From positions 1-49,917 of the forward strand of contig JAGOZU010000014.1 of the NCBI GenBank assembly GCA_018058545.1: DNA of 49,917 nucleotides. Direction: 5' to 3'. Every line of letters begins with the position of its first letter. The first letter of the stretch is position 1. The position numbers were made by a program, and so were the translations under genes. The notes beneath the pieces were generated by a model that saw nothing but the letters and a program-made list of their open reading frames with translations, was not told the origin of the DNA and did no database searches. This document shows, piece by piece, positions 44,383-49,917 of the stretch. The stretch is from Promineifilum sp. GTDB lineage: Bacteria; Chloroflexota; Anaerolineae; Promineifilales; Promineifilaceae.

Positions 44383-44425
44383 TCGAGCCTTCGGGTTTTT
44401 GGCTGGTCAACCTTGCGGGAGACGC

Positions 44426-44441
44426 TACAATTTATCGGCCA
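44426..44441 (+). promoter_or_regulatory. -10 box of the deoxynucleoside kinase gene
   Basis: TACAAT (44426-44431) lies nine bases before ATG 44441, with no Shine-Dalgarno between. No good -35 is visible. Confidence 0.45.
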
Positions 44442-45079
44442 TGACAAAACGCTTTATCCTGGTAGCCGGCAATATCGGCGTTGGCAAGACATCCCTGGCC
44501 GAACGGGTGGCCGCCCGTCTGGGCTGGACGAGCGGCTTTGAATCGGTGGCCGACAATCCCTATCTGGCCGAGTTCTACGACGATATGCGCCAATGGTCGT
44601 TCCATTTGCAGGTCTTTTTTCTGGGTCACCGCGCTCAGCAGCATCTGGCCCTGGCCAATGCGTCTCAATCGGCCATCTCCGATCGCAGTATTTATGAGGA
44701 CGCCTATATCTTCGCTCGCGTACTCCATCATCTGGGCAATCTGAACGAGCGGGATTACCAATCCTATCGCCGCGTCTTTGACCTGGTCGTGGCCGGCTTG
44801 CCGCGACCCGATCTTCTGCTCTATCTGACGGCTCCGGTGCCCGTGCTGATGGAGCGCATCCGCCGGCGCGCTCGCCCGATCGAGGCGGGCATCACTGAAG
44901 ATTACCTCCAATTGCTGGATTCATTCTATGGGGAATGGCTCAGCGGTTTCGATCTGTGCCCCGTTCTGACCCTTCGCACCCAGCATCTCGACTTCGTCCA
45001 CCATGATCACCACCTCAACACGGTGATCGACCGCATCGAAGCCAAGCTGTCCGGCCGCGAAGAACTCATTTTCGATTGA
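44441..45079 (+). CDS. Deoxynucleoside kinase
   Basis: 212 residues from ATG 44441. It phosphorylates deoxyadenosine/deoxyguanosine or deoxycytidine in nucleotide salvage. P-loop VAGNIGVGKTSLAERVA at 8-24, helix with ADNPYLAEFYDD (substrate Glu/Tyr), HLQVFFLGHRAQQHL, the family signature SDRSIYEDAYIFA (DRS) and the lid region RIRRRARPIEAGI. Which base is preferred is not readable. It diverges from clpS. Confidence 0.92.
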   Translation: MTKRFILVAGNIGVGKTSLAERVAARLGWTSGFESVADNPYLAEFYDDMRQWSFHLQVFFLGHRAQQHLALANASQSAISDRSIYEDAYIFARVLHHLGNLNERDYQSYRRVFDLVVAGLPRPDLLLYLTAPVPVLMERIRRRARPIEAGITEDYLQLLDSFYGEWLSGFDLCPVLTLRTQHLDFVHHDHHLNTVIDRIEAKLSGREELIFD

Positions 45080-45117: not shown

Positions 45118-45750
45118 GTGAGTTCGGAAGAGACCCAAACGCCGATTGACGACGATGATGTGAATGGCGAGAAGGGCTTGTCGTCATACGTCTATTATAT
45201 TGCGGCGCTGGCCTTGATGGCCCTTGCGCTGGGAGGATGGGCGTGGCTTAACAGCAAGACTCCTCGGCCGGCGGTCGTCGGAGTGGCCAGCGCCACGCCG
45301 CGGCCCCTGCCTGCCGGCGACGAGGACGCTCCGGGGGATGCTTTTGGACTGGTGCCGGGCCTGGCTACCCCTTGGGCGGTGGCCGGCGGGCCGGGAGAGA
45401 CGCCGACGGTCGTGCCGGAGGTGACACCGGTACACATTCCCTTGTTGGGGCCGCCGGCGGGCAGCATCTTCCGGATGGAGGATACGATTTCGTTCTACTG
45501 GAGCGCCGCGGGGGAGCCGTCACCCAATCAGCGGTACGGCGTCTATTTGCTGGACGGCGGCGAGCGCGTGCTGCTTGGTTCAGCCGTTGGGCCGAATTTG
45601 GGGCAGGGGTATCAGATACGGGCGACGATCGGCGAGTTCGTCGATGAACCGGGCGAATATCGTTGGCTGGTCGTGCTGGAAGATGTCGATTCCGGCGCCA
45701 TCATTGGGCAAAGCGAGATCCGGCCAATCACCTTGATGATGAGTAATTAA
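45118..45750 (+). CDS. Membrane-anchored protein with an extracellular beta domain
   Basis: 210 residues from GTG 45118. An acidic N-terminal tail (DDDDVNGEKG) precedes one membrane helix at about 24-44, then a Pro/Gly-rich linker and a domain at about 108-205. That domain resembles residues 368-470 of the next gene's product: both have a GP, a MxDTIxFxW turn, a VxLLDG strand and a closing W-(L/Q)-V/I-x-LE-x-VD motif followed by an IP/RPI end. No catalytic motif is visible. A TGTTAGACT box six bases before GTG suggests a leaderless transcript. Confidence 0.75.
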   Translation: MSSEETQTPIDDDDVNGEKGLSSYVYYIAALALMALALGGWAWLNSKTPRPAVVGVASATPRPLPAGDEDAPGDAFGLVPGLATPWAVAGGPGETPTVVPEVTPVHIPLLGPPAGSIFRMEDTISFYWSAAGEPSPNQRYGVYLLDGGERVLLGSAVGPNLGQGYQIRATIGEFVDEPGEYRWLVVLEDVDSGAIIGQSEIRPITLMMSN

Positions 45751-45899: not shown

Positions 45900-47777
45900 A
45901 TGGTGGCGAGGGATAAGGAAGACCTGTCCGGGCAGCAGATAGGCAACTACGAAATCGAATCCCATATCGCGGCACGCAAGGCCAGCGATCTTTTTCTGGC
46001 GCGTGATGTCAAGCTGGAGCGTTTGGTGTTCCTGGAGGCCCTGCGCGTGACAGGGGATGAGGATGAAGACCTCGTCGAGCGCTTCTACACCCGGATGGAG
46101 ACGGTCTCTCAACTCAAGGATCCTGCCATCGCCGTTGTCAGCGATATCGATGTAACCGAAGACGGCTACCCGTATGCCGTCATCGATTATTTCCCCTATC
46201 GGACATTGGCCGACAAAATTGCCGACAGGCGGGGCGATATGGGGTCTTTGCCGGTCATTGAATCGCTGGGGCTGGTTAAGCGAATCGCTCAGGGCCTGGG
46301 TGTGGCCCATGAGGCAGGCCTGATCCACCACGACTTGCGGCCGGAAAATATCATGTTGCGCGAGGATGGGTCGCCGGTCCTGATCGATCTGGGTGTGCCT
46401 CTGGTCACCGGCTATCCGGCTCCGGCGACAGCCGGGACCGACGACGCGATGCTGGGCTATGCCGCGCCGGAAGAGGCGGAAGGCAAGCCGCTGACCGAGC
46501 GCAGCAATATCTATTCATTGGGCATCATTCTCTATGAACTGCTGGCCGGACACCGGCCGAACCTGCCCAATCTGCCCTTCGACATCTTCCCCCATGCCAA
46601 CATGCCCAAAGAGGAGCCTCTTGAAGAGGCGCGTCCGGGGCTGGCTGGCGAAACATACCGACTGGTGCGCAACTGCCTTTGGCGACAGGAGTGGAGCCGT
46701 TTCGAGACTACGGATGAGATGATCACGGCCATCGAGACGGCCGTCTTTGCCGAGCAGGAATTGCCCAAGGCGGCCGCCTGGTCCGCGCAGCGCAGCCGTT
46801 CGATGGCCGTCTATATCGTGCCTGTCGCCCTGATCCTGGTCGGCATTCTGGGCTTCTTCTTGCTGCGGGGCCTGTTCGGCTCCAATAGCGACGGTCAGGC
46901 GACGCCGGCGGGGACAAACGTCGCCGTCGTGGAGACGACCGATCCGGGCGCCACGCCCACCGGCACGGCGACGCCTGAACTGCCCACGGAATCGGCGGGT
47001 GACTTCTCTATTTCGGTGCTTTTCCCCGGGCCGTTCCGTGAGTTCGGCATGAAGGATACGATCAACTTCGACTGGATGTGGCCGACGGTGCTGGAACCCG
47101 GTCGTCACTTCGCCGTCTTTCTGCTCGATGGCGAGCAGGAGTACCAGCTCGGCACGCTGACCGAACCCAACAACGGTGCGGTCTACCGCTTGCAGGTTCC
47201 TGCGGCGGAGTTGCCTGTCACGGGCACAGGACTCGCCTGGCAGATTCGTCTGGAGAGCGTTGACGGCAACGAGGTGTTCGTTGCCAGCGATCTGATCCCT
47301 ATTTCGATTCGGCCGCTTGAGGCGGAAGCGACGGCCACGCAAGGCGGGACCGAAGCGCCGCCTAGCGAGACGCCGTCCGCGACGCCGACCGTGGTTTGCG
47401 TGGTGGATCCTCCGGCGGCGTGGGTGGCCTATACCATTCGCAACGGCGATTCCTTGTCCAAGCTTGCCGAGCGAGCCGATATTCCCGTTGAGACTTTGCT
47501 GGAAGTCAACTGCCTGCCCAATGATAGTCTAAGCATCGGCCAGCAGGTCTGGGTGCCGCAAGCGGCACTCCCGCCCACCAGCGCGCCGCCGCCGTCCACC
47601 AACACCCCCGCGCCGCCGCCCACGTCTGCGCCCATCACGACAGCGCCGCCGCCGGCTACCTCTGCACCACCGGCCACATCTGTGCCGACGACTGCGCCGA
47701 CAGCTCCGCCCGCGACGGATGTACCACCCACGGATATTCCGCCGACGGAAGTACCGCCCACTCCGCCGCCGGGATAG
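45900..47777 (+). CDS. Ser/Thr protein kinase-like membrane protein with LysM
   Basis: 625 residues. A PknB-like kinase domain (about 17-285), one membrane helix (303-324), a beta domain (368-470) shared with the neighbour at 45118, a LysM peptidoglycan-binding domain (510-553; YTIRNGDSLSKLAERADIPVETLLEVN) and a Pro/Thr-rich tail. The catalytic loop HHDLRPEN (Asp145, Asn150), DLG163-165 and APE189-191 remain. However, the Gly-rich loop is AARKA, the beta-3 Lys is Glu46 and the helix-C Glu is Arg65, so it is probably a pseudokinase or ATP-site variant. It may sense cell-wall state through LysM. No clear Shine-Dalgarno precedes ATG 45900. Confidence 0.85.
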   Translation: MVARDKEDLSGQQIGNYEIESHIAARKASDLFLARDVKLERLVFLEALRVTGDEDEDLVERFYTRMETVSQLKDPAIAVVSDIDVTEDGYPYAVIDYFPYRTLADKIADRRGDMGSLPVIESLGLVKRIAQGLGVAHEAGLIHHDLRPENIMLREDGSPVLIDLGVPLVTGYPAPATAGTDDAMLGYAAPEEAEGKPLTERSNIYSLGIILYELLAGHRPNLPNLPFDIFPHANMPKEEPLEEARPGLAGETYRLVRNCLWRQEWSRFETTDEMITAIETAVFAEQELPKAAAWSAQRSRSMAVYIVPVALILVGILGFFLLRGLFGSNSDGQATPAGTNVAVVETTDPGATPTGTATPELPTESAGDFSISVLFPGPFREFGMKDTINFDWMWPTVLEPGRHFAVFLLDGEQEYQLGTLTEPNNGAVYRLQVPAAELPVTGTGLAWQIRLESVDGNEVFVASDLIPISIRPLEAEATATQGGTEAPPSETPSATPTVVCVVDPPAAWVAYTIRNGDSLSKLAERADIPVETLLEVNCLPNDSLSIGQQVWVPQAALPPTSAPPPSTNTPAPPPTSAPITTAPPPATSAPPATSVPTTAPTAPPATDVPPTDIPPTEVPPTPPPG

Positions 47778-48109
47778 AGCCGAATACGGGCGATATTCGC
47801 ACAAATTTCAAATTTGACTGGCACAATTTTATAGAACAGATTAGTATTTCAGTACGATGACTAGTACTGAAGTACTATTGTGCTTGGAGATTGCCGGTTG
47901 TTCTTTTCGCACGTCTTGCCGGCTGAAGGCGGCTCCGGGCGCCTCTCGTATTTCACTGATTTTTAACCATGACTCATGATGATCGACGGTAACATAAAAT
48001 TGGGCGTTGCCGGTTGGCCGCCGTTCATAACTGTCTGGTGGCATGGAGGACTGCCCGGGCAATCGATTCCGGCCGGGTGCTACGGCAAAGTTGAGAGTGA
48101 GGGAAGGTG
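47778..48109. other. Intergenic region with an imperfect palindrome
   Basis: A 332-base AT-richer gap between the kinase-like gene and the secreted repeat protein. It contains an inverted repeat at 47842-47877. A minus-strand frame across 47841-48062 shows no recognisable protein or start signal and I do not count it. GGGAAGG at the right edge is the Shine-Dalgarno of the next gene. Confidence 0.6.
47842..47877. repeat. 14-bp inverted repeat in the gap after the kinase-like gene
   Basis: AGTATTTCAGTAC (47843-47855) pairs with GTACTGAAGTACT (47864-47876) through one G-T pair, extended by T47842 with A47877, over an eight-base loop. No T-run follows, so it may be an operator or a weak terminator. 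Confidence 0.5.
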
Positions 48110-49917
48110 ATGAACAGAAAAGCGATGCCGGTCAGTTTGCTGGCGCTGGCGATTGTATTGGTTTGGGCGATCTCTGCGCCGGCGGATGCCCGTTCTCTTG
48201 TTCCGGGCACGGCTCCCGCGCAGCGCTCTACGTCTGTGAAACCCAAACAGGATGATCCGCTCAACACCGCGCCGACGGCCGAAAATCAGAATGTCAGCGT
48301 GGTGGAGGATACGCCGAAGTTGATCACGCTCACCGGCAGTGACCCTGACCTGGGTGACACCCTGACCTTTTCGATTGTGGCCTCGCCGGCGCATGGTTCG
48401 CTCAGCGGGACCGGGGCCGGCCAAACATATACACCGAACTCCAACTATAACGGCCCGGACAGCTTCACTTTCCAGATCTTCGACGGCACGGACTACAGTA
48501 ATGTGGCCACCATATCGATCACAGTAACCCCGGTCAACGACGCGCCGACGGCCAATCCTCAGAGCGTCAACGTGGTGGAGGATACGCCGACGATTATCAC
48601 ACTCACCGGTAGTGACCCGGACGGCAATGCGCTTACCTTTTCTATTGTGACCCCCCCGGTAAACGGAACGCTAAGCGGGACAGGGGCTGACCGGACTTAT
48701 ACGCCAAATCCCAACTACACCGGCCCGGACAGCTTCACTTTCAAGGTCAACGACGTCACGACCGACAGTAATGTGGCCACTGTATCGATCACGGTCATCC
48801 CGGTCAACGATGCGCCGACGGCCAATCCTCAGAGCGTCAACGTGGTGGAGGATACGCCGACGATTATCACACTCACCGGTAGTGACCCGGACGCTGGCGA
48901 TACGTTGACCTTTACGATTGTGACCCCGCCGGTGAACGGAACGCTCAGCCCGGCCGTAGGAAACGAGGCCGTTCGGACATATACACCCAATCCCAACTTC
49001 AACGGTTCGGACAGCTTCACTTTCAAGATCAACGACGGCACGACTGACAGTAATGTGGCTACCGTATCGATCACGGTCACCCCGGTCAACGACGCGCCGG
49101 CGCTCGACCTGGACAGCGGCAGCGCAGGCACGGGGTTTTCGACCACCCACTCCGCCGGTAAGACCGCGGTTGCTATTGCCGGAGCCAGTCTGACGATAAC
49201 CGACCCTGATAACTCCGGGCTTATGGGTGCCACGATTAAAATCACAAATCTGAAGCACTCCGGCGGGGAGGTTCTTGACGCCACTGTGACCGGAGGTATT
49301 ACCAAGAACTACGACAGCCTGACTGGCGTGCTGACGCTCACCGGGGCGGCTTCCATCGCCGATTATCAGACAGTGCTGAAGTCCGTCACCTATCGCATCA
49401 AATCTGATGTGTCCACCCCGAATACTGCGGAACGAAGCATCGAGGTGGTGGTTCATGACGGTGAGGCATCCAGCAATACGGCCGTATCTACGGTCAAGAT
49501 CATCGCTCCGCGCATCAATATCACGGCCACCACAACGGCATCCACGACCGCCATTCCCGTGGGCGGAAGCGCCACATTCTCGATAACCATCACGAACCAC
49601 ACCGGCAGCAATGTGAATTTGAAGGATATCGTGGTCACTTCTCCATCTCAGCCGACCCAACCGGATAATACTTGCTCCAAAGTCCTGTCCGGCGAATTAG
49701 CTCCCGGAGCCTCTCATTCATTTGACTGTCTGGCGTATGGAATGCAGGAGGGGTACTTTCATTCGTTTACAGTGACGGCCAAGGATGTGGAACTCCTCGG
49801 CGAGGTATCGGCCGGCACGCAGGCCCTGGTCAAGGTCGCCCTGCCTATCGTTGTTCAGGTCGACCCCAAGGACAATGTGACCACCCTGATGAAGGGGGGT
49901 AATGCGCAGTTCCATAT
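48110..49917 (+). CDS. Secreted tandem-95/cadherin-like repeat protein (3'-truncated)
   Basis: At least 602 residues; the frame is open to the window edge. A Shine-Dalgarno GGGAAGG precedes ATG 48110, which begins a signal peptide (MPVSLLALAIVLVWAISAPADA). Three repeats of about 90 residues follow, each with VVEDTPxxITLTGSDPD, TPxxNGTLSGTG, YTPNxNYxGPDSFTFKxNDG and SITVxPVNDAPT, typical of tandem-95 or cadherin-like adhesins. Residues from about 330 resemble another Ig-like repeat with SASITDPDNSGL and a Cys-containing (NTCSKV, FDCLAYG) domain. The repeats are probably calcium-binding beta sandwiches on the cell surface. C-terminal anchoring lies beyond the window. Confidence 0.85.
   Translation, partial: MNRKAMPVSLLALAIVLVWAISAPADARSLVPGTAPAQRSTSVKPKQDDPLNTAPTAENQNVSVVEDTPKLITLTGSDPDLGDTLTFSIVASPAHGSLSGTGAGQTYTPNSNYNGPDSFTFQIFDGTDYSNVATISITVTPVNDAPTANPQSVNVVEDTPTIITLTGSDPDGNALTFSIVTPPVNGTLSGTGADRTYTPNPNYTGPDSFTFKVNDVTTDSNVATVSITVIPVNDAPTANPQSVNVVEDTPTIITLTGSDPDAGDTLTFTIVTPPVNGTLSPAVGNEAVRTYTPNPNFNGSDSFTFKINDGTTDSNVATVSITVTPVNDAPALDLDSGSAGTGFSTTHSAGKTAVAIAGASLTITDPDNSGLMGATIKITNLKHSGGEVLDATVTGGITKNYDSLTGVLTLTGAASIADYQTVLKSVTYRIKSDVSTPNTAERSIEVVVHDGEASSNTAVSTVKIIAPRINITATTTASTTAIPVGGSATFSITITNHTGSNVNLKDIVVTSPSQPTQPDNTCSKVLSGELAPGASHSFDCLAYGMQEGYFHSFTVTAKDVELLGEVSAGTQALVKVALPIVVQVDPKDNVTTLMKGGNAQFH
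48542..48893 (+). repeat. 270-bp intragenic direct repeats with an identical 82-bp segment
   Basis: The segment 48542-48623 recurs without change at 48812-48893, offset by 270 bases (90 codons). The surrounding units of the repeat protein are near-identical but diverge elsewhere, so recent unit duplication or gene conversion is likely. Confidence 0.85.

Follow-up and report, generated by a model that had tools for sequence, protein, structure and literature searches.

An apparent lineage-specific family of membrane pseudokinases with a charge-reversed β3/helix-C ion pair in filamentous Chloroflexota

The pair formed by the β3 Lys and the helix-C Glu is, to our knowledge, the most conserved ion pair of protein kinases and the feature that best identifies their fold, and bacterial pseudokinases are, as far as we know, almost unstudied. 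A 2025 review of these proteins distinguishes seven families, ActPs1-3, GLW, CP1, DYD and DLHK, and leaves Chloroflexota unmentioned (PMC12599244). Among them, the pseudokinase domain of MviN (ActPs3) is linked to peptidoglycan and has its pocket filled by a bulky residue (PMC12599244). VRK3 displays an acidic filled pocket and a degenerate glycine loop and is closed without ATP (PMC2639636), and in ROR2 the DFG Asp is salt-bridged to an Arg of helix C (PMC4718504). Scheeff et al. regard each of two features, degradation of the glycine loop and a residue other than a small one at the VAIK Ala site, as predictive of lost ATP binding (PMC2639636). Here we describe pseudokinase A, the founding example of a charge-reversed family in filamentous Chloroflexota. 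A family with exchanged charges constitutes a natural experiment on the pair as a structural strut versus an ATP contact.

Pseudokinase A is encoded at positions 45900..47777 of the window, the whole stretch of 49,917 nucleotides that was analysed (G000:C42:1-49917, part of a 3.6 Mb Chloroflexota draft genome); all genes and protein features of the window given below are on the + strand. The genome belongs to Promineifilum, a genus of filamentous Chloroflexota known from activated sludge. The open reading frame, with an ATG at 45900 and a stop codon at 47775-47777, was judged real and encodes 625 amino acids arranged as a kinase fold, a transmembrane (TM) helix, an Ig-like domain, a LysM domain and a Pro-rich tail. 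The kinase-fold domain spans residues 17-285 (45948..46754) according to phmmer matches to PknB, an AlphaFold2 (AF2) model and structural alignment. A single TM helix was located by hydropathy at residues about 304-322 (46809..46865), and is followed by an Ig-like β-sandwich ectodomain at about residues 364-471 (46989..47311), recognized in the AF2 model, by Foldseek matches to Ig/FnIII/CBM folds and by homology to the upstream gene. The LysM domain covers residues 511-553 (47430..47558; Pfam 7.3e-11), and the C-terminal tail after it is rich in Pro/Thr. Pfam scores were 67.6 bits for Pkinase and 42.3 bits for LysM; with the LysM match and one TM helix, the kinase-like protein of the initial annotation is membrane-anchored and carries LysM in its ectodomain. 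Between this gene and the cadherin-like gene downstream there is an AT-rich palindrome of 14 pairs (TAGTATTTCAGTAC...GTACTGAAGTACTA, window 47842-47877), which is not claimed as a terminator because it is without a T run.

Residues 17-275 of pseudokinase A were aligned to PknB by phmmer with 94 bits and without gaps from β1 through helix C, placing Glu46 (codon GAG, 46035..46037) at the β3 Lys K40 and Arg65 (codon CGG, 46092..46094) at the helix-C Glu E59, with a spacing of 19 residues in both proteins. MAFFT put both residues in identical columns, and the Pfam Pkinase alignment, where residue 47 falls at profile position 31, which we take to be the column next after the VAIK Lys, is consistent with Glu46 at the Lys column. 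Any alignment that would bring a Lys into the ATP site instead was discarded, since phmmer and MAFFT concur gap-free and Pfam is consistent with them. Lys38 aligns with an Arg/Lys common at the β2-β3 turn of active kinases, and Arg26 and Lys27 fall in the lost glycine loop, away from the WNK position. The AF2 model of the kinase domain (pLDDT 83, pTM 0.83) has β3 as strand 41-48 and helix C as helix 56-70, with block-mean pLDDT above 90 in both, and its top structural match is PknB 2fum (VIA-align Z 29.1 over 255 residues). The predicted structure and the motifs together describe a bilobal kinase fold deprived of at least one canonical catalytic residue. Leu33 and Asp76 of PknB, residues of its back-to-back dimer, correspond to Leu39 and Asp82 of pseudokinase A, which 8/8 A orthologues of the genus share and pseudokinase B (described below) does not, so that dimerization through this face is possible from the sequence for pseudokinase A and is not generalized to B.

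The ungapped PknB-type match with an exchanged pair had been proposed in the initial annotation together with a degenerate glycine loop and persisting HxD, N, DxG and APE motifs, and all of these were recovered. The loop, AARKA in that annotation, reads IAARKAS in the alignment (residues 23-29, 45966..45986), with AARKAS in place of GxGxxG and Arg26 at the second Gly site. The catalytic-loop remnant HHDLRPEN (residues 143-150, 46326..46349) keeps the His, the Asp (HHD, 143-145) and the Asn (N150), the HRD Arg and the HRDxK Lys being gone and Arg147 standing at the Lys site. DLG occupies the DFG site (residues 163-165, 46386..46394), APE is found at residues 189-191 (46464..46472), and Phe44 takes the VAIK Ala (adenine-pocket/C-spine) site (46029..46031), where Phe is present in 8/8 genus orthologues.

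Pseudokinase A resembles the PknB-type (Hanks) Ser/Thr kinases in fold and sequence, in its juxtamembrane TM helix and in a possibly wall-binding ectodomain, but it has no glycine loop, the pair is inverted, Phe replaces the VAIK Ala, the HRDxK Lys is gone and the ectodomain is LysM/Ig-like instead of PASTA. Assignment to the PASTA kinases (NF033483) was rejected, as the match gave 157.8 bits over residues 16-292 only, against an NCBIfam cut-off of 450 bits, and the protein carries LysM and no PASTA repeats. MviN is likewise a bacterial pseudokinase tied to peptidoglycan with a bulky residue filling the pocket, but there all three motifs are degraded and the activation loop has a deletion, whereas pseudokinase A keeps HxD, N and DxG and has its own LysM. 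VRK3 shares the acidic, filled nucleotide pocket and the degenerate glycine loop, yet its Lys-Glu pair is in normal polarity and the protein is eukaryotic and soluble. ROR2 also has an Arg in helix C, but nearly all catalytic residues are present in its primary sequence and no acid occupies the β3 Lys site. In DYD, DLHK and POMK the nucleotide pocket likewise has re-wired salt bridges or contains basic residues (PMC12599244), but they belong to other phyla and architectures and none is described with a β3 acid plus a helix-C base.

By their descriptions, the seven reviewed families all exclude pseudokinase A. In ActPs1 all three catalytic residues are substituted, and Asp145 and Asp163 are kept here; ActPs2 combines an Arg at the β3 Lys site, an Asn for the HRD Asp, a DFG deletion and a large activation-loop insert, against Glu46, Asp145, Asp163 and a short loop; and HHD...N and DLG, kept here, separate the protein from ActPs3. 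DYD proteins (β3 Arg, the DYD motif and no helix-C Glu) are set apart by Glu46 and DLG, GLW proteins (GLW for HRD, Leu/Trp at the β3 Lys site) by HHD and Glu46, and DLHK and CP1 (no TM; DEAD/DNA2 or COG3899 partners) by the single TM helix and LysM. No described pseudokinase with a β3 Glu and a helix-C Arg/Lys was found in the open-access literature, which is not proof of absence.

The two sites were surveyed in 136 distinct kinase domains from the genome itself, from its GTDB family and from further hits in the wider class and in public sequences, the surveyed and tree domains being gathered by similarity to the query. Ninety-one domains are Lys/Glu, 44 are otherwise and one is cut at the site. 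The 44 comprise E/R (21), D/R (6), E/K (4) and neutral/R (13) types at sites 46/65, the helix-C site holding Arg (40) or Lys (4) and site 46 holding E (25), D (6), T (6), V (3), F (2), L (1) or G (1); neither a Lys/Arg nor a Glu/Glu combination occurs in any of the surveyed domains. In a tree built without columns 46 and 65, all 44 form one clade nested within active kinases (SH-aLRT 99), and a second tree, minus all active-site columns and one long-branch member, supports the clade at 99/94 with a single origin in 99% of bootstrap trees. Two deep subclades, A (E/R plus T, V, F and L derivatives) and B (E/K, D/R, E/R and G/R), are supported at 100/99 each, and an acid with a base occurs in both, so the tree is most simply read as making this state ancestral. 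As judged from the sequences, the β3 Lys/helix-C Glu pair was exchanged for an acid and a base once, before the deepest split of the family, and then kept.

The clade is confined, among the best outside hits examined, to one GTDB family around Promineifilum, of which at least 27 of 52 genomes carry a member. No member was present among the best hits outside that family (L102-L117 and L167, all Lys/Glu), and none was found in the viral contigs searched for pseudokinase relatives. Kinase domains are 78-86% identical within the genus (Promineifilum, Ardenticatenia and Anaerolineae MAGs being the nearest named relatives). Operon-type pseudokinases scored 280-440 bits with the HMM and domains outside the GTDB family about 230 or less; since close active relatives inside the family reach up to about 300 bits, scores alone cannot separate the clade, and it is the motifs and the tree that do. 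The clade is apparently an undescribed lineage-specific family of dead kinases located beside cell-surface genes.

Nine Pkinase matches are present in the genome itself. Seven of them are Lys/Glu, six of these having the HxD Asp, and the other two are charge-reversed. The second charge-reversed protein, pseudokinase B, is of D/R type with an SH3_3 ectodomain and lies on contig C161; A and B are both present in all 8 genomes of the genus. Pseudokinase A is preceded by a conserved neighbour, a small TM protein (45118..45750) with an Ig-like domain 31% identical to the pseudokinase A ectodomain, and followed by another, a cadherin/Big_9-repeat surface protein (48107..49917) truncated by the contig end. 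A deoxynucleoside kinase (44399..45079), an upstream neighbour within the genus only, is probably functionally unrelated. Where the cluster is contiguous in relatives, the small Ig protein is followed by pseudokinase A, the cadherin/Big_9 surface protein, a DUF7507/CARDB surface protein, pseudokinase B and a further surface protein, and in other genera a shortened order of small Ig protein, A (V/R or F/R), surface protein and B (E/K) is found, the cluster of small Ig protein, A, surface protein(s) and B being kept in at least five genera. The window contig stops within the cadherin/Big_9-repeat gene and C161 (G000:C161:1-9000, L068) starts within a very similar repeat-bearing gene (KVLSGELAPGASHSFDCLAYGMQEGY); the two contigs are probably neighbours, and near-identical repeats within the cluster probably broke the assembly here.

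Beyond the exchanged pair, the ATP site of the clade is altered at several positions. The VAIK Ala lines the adenine pocket, and this site holds A, V or C in 91/91 Lys/Glu kinases and F, Y or W in 23 of 44 clade members versus 0/91. The HRDxK Lys, kept in 91/91 Lys/Glu kinases, is lost in 44/44 clade members, all of which also lack the HRD Arg (two cells unreadable), and the second glycine-loop Gly is lost in 43/44, a basic residue replacing it in 29. Phe44 and the losses of the second Gly and of the HRDxK Lys argue against ATP use, and the suggestion of the initial annotation that the kinase fold may bind something other than ATP is probably right in that ATP is not used. The HxD Asp, the Asn and the DFG Asp (D145, N150, D163) are nevertheless kept in 8/8 genus A and 8/8 genus B orthologues, as would be expected if some role in metal or nucleotide binding had survived, which weighs against a nucleotide-free reading.

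On balance, we consider it probable that pseudokinase A belongs to a lineage-specific family derived from active PknB-type kinases and is a nucleotide-independent membrane pseudokinase that has a LysM/Ig-like ectodomain and acts through scaffolding or allostery. Arg65 would reach the former phosphate site and pair with Glu46 and probably with Asp163 of DLG, as suggested by structural equivalence and by the helix-C Arg/DFG Asp bridge of ROR2. The pocket would thereby satisfy its own charges, giving a closed, helix-C-in-like kinase fold without nucleotide, comparable to that of VRK3. Freed from catalysis, the domain could then scaffold or allosterically regulate other proteins on the inner side of the membrane. 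Candidate partners would be pseudokinase B, an active kinase encoded outside the cluster, or both, and the LysM/Ig-like ectodomain would anchor to peptidoglycan and couple to the cadherin-like surface proteins of the cluster. The scaffold and cell-wall sensing roles we infer from architecture and gene neighbourhood; the cluster itself contains no active kinase or phosphatase, which weighs against this explanation. More tentatively, an ancestral double reversal of the Lys72-Glu91 pair, still bridged in reversed polarity, may lock a nucleotide-free helix-C-in pseudokinase, the paired LysM and SH3b pseudokinases acting as envelope sensors or surface-protein organizers, a proposal that we regard as plausible and somewhat short of probable.

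The same conserved D145, N150 and D163 (16/16 genus A and B orthologues) would suit an atypical active kinase or a nucleotide-binding switch in which HxD/N/DxG hold Mg and Arg26/Lys26 takes the phosphate contact, as in ROP5B, whose glycine-loop Arg contacts ATP (PMC4718504), and POMK, which binds ATP without the canonical Lys/Glu (PMC12599244). Site 26 is basic in 26/31 members with an acid at site 46, versus 3/13 without, but this covariation comprises only 3 independent contrasts and is not significant, and other columns show an association too. Against such a function stand Phe44 in place of the Ala of the adenine pocket, an acid at the β3 site that faces the phosphate, the universal loss of the HRDxK Lys in the clade, and sister lineages in which D145 or D163 is lost and the fold and Arg65 are retained, so that we consider it unlikely.

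Selection on pseudokinase A and its relatives can be followed at sites 46 and 65. Glu46/Arg65 is found in 8/8 genus orthologues of pseudokinase A, codons 46, 65, 145, 150 and 163 change synonymously only in the A operon orthologues, and in genus group B D46 (6) and E46 (2) alternate, as do R and K at site 65. The synonymous-only codons, the E/D and R/K exchanges and the presence in both subclades indicate that the swap is kept by purifying selection, which upholds the idea of a reciprocal change that was maintained; strict co-variation, for which the initial annotation proposed a survey of homologues, is not supported, as 13 members keep Arg65 with T, V, F, L or G at site 46. Arg/Lys65 is never lost in the clade, its charge being constant throughout, and Glu46 is lost several times. 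The pair is thus not obligate, and Arg65 must have an additional role or partner.

Arg65 could even be the real constraint, pairing with an acid of the activation segment (Asp163, or the Glu of GLE in a fused subgroup) in an inactive ROR2-like state, with Glu46 secondary. A base at site 65 in 44/44 members versus an acid at site 46 in 31/44, the Glu at the DFG-Gly site of the T/R subgroup and the ROR2 precedent agree with this. The acid at site 46 is constrained too, however, since the two deep subclades both have it and E and D replace each other within group B, and site 163 lacks an Asp in 11 of the R65 members; we regard the idea as rather improbable. That the gene is a decaying kinase under relaxed selection and the swap a chance substitution pair, as the many motif positions differing between subfamilies might suggest, is largely refuted and hardly credible given the synonymous-only changes of codons 46 and 65, the presence of A and B throughout the genus, the gene order kept across genera and the single strongly supported clade.

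The best evidence for such domains acting on kinases comes from six fusions (L023, L024, L028, L126, L138 and L139), in which an active-type Lys/Glu kinase is followed in one chain by a charge-altered pseudokinase (T/R or E/R) with GLE for DFG. This kinase-then-pseudokinase order is the reverse of the JH2-JH1 order of JAK. The family offers a tractable bacterial pseudokinase system: it can be recognized by its sequence, has active kinases as close relatives, includes fusions of a kinase with a pseudokinase and has a conserved gene cluster. Other sequences were noted in passing. In one relative, the same-genus genome G033, a CRISPR-like array with at least 29 repeat copies ending GAGGGATTGAAAC at a spacing of 70-76 nt (L060 2758-4884) lies directly upstream of the deoxynucleoside kinase/pseudokinase cluster; none was seen at the corresponding place in the window. 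A domain of the genome itself (G000:C162:104901-105527, L009) keeps Lys/Glu with HLN for HRD and DTG for DFG and is possibly an independent pseudokinase. A related genome encodes a protein with a tandem pair of Lys/Glu kinase domains (L155 1650-4226).
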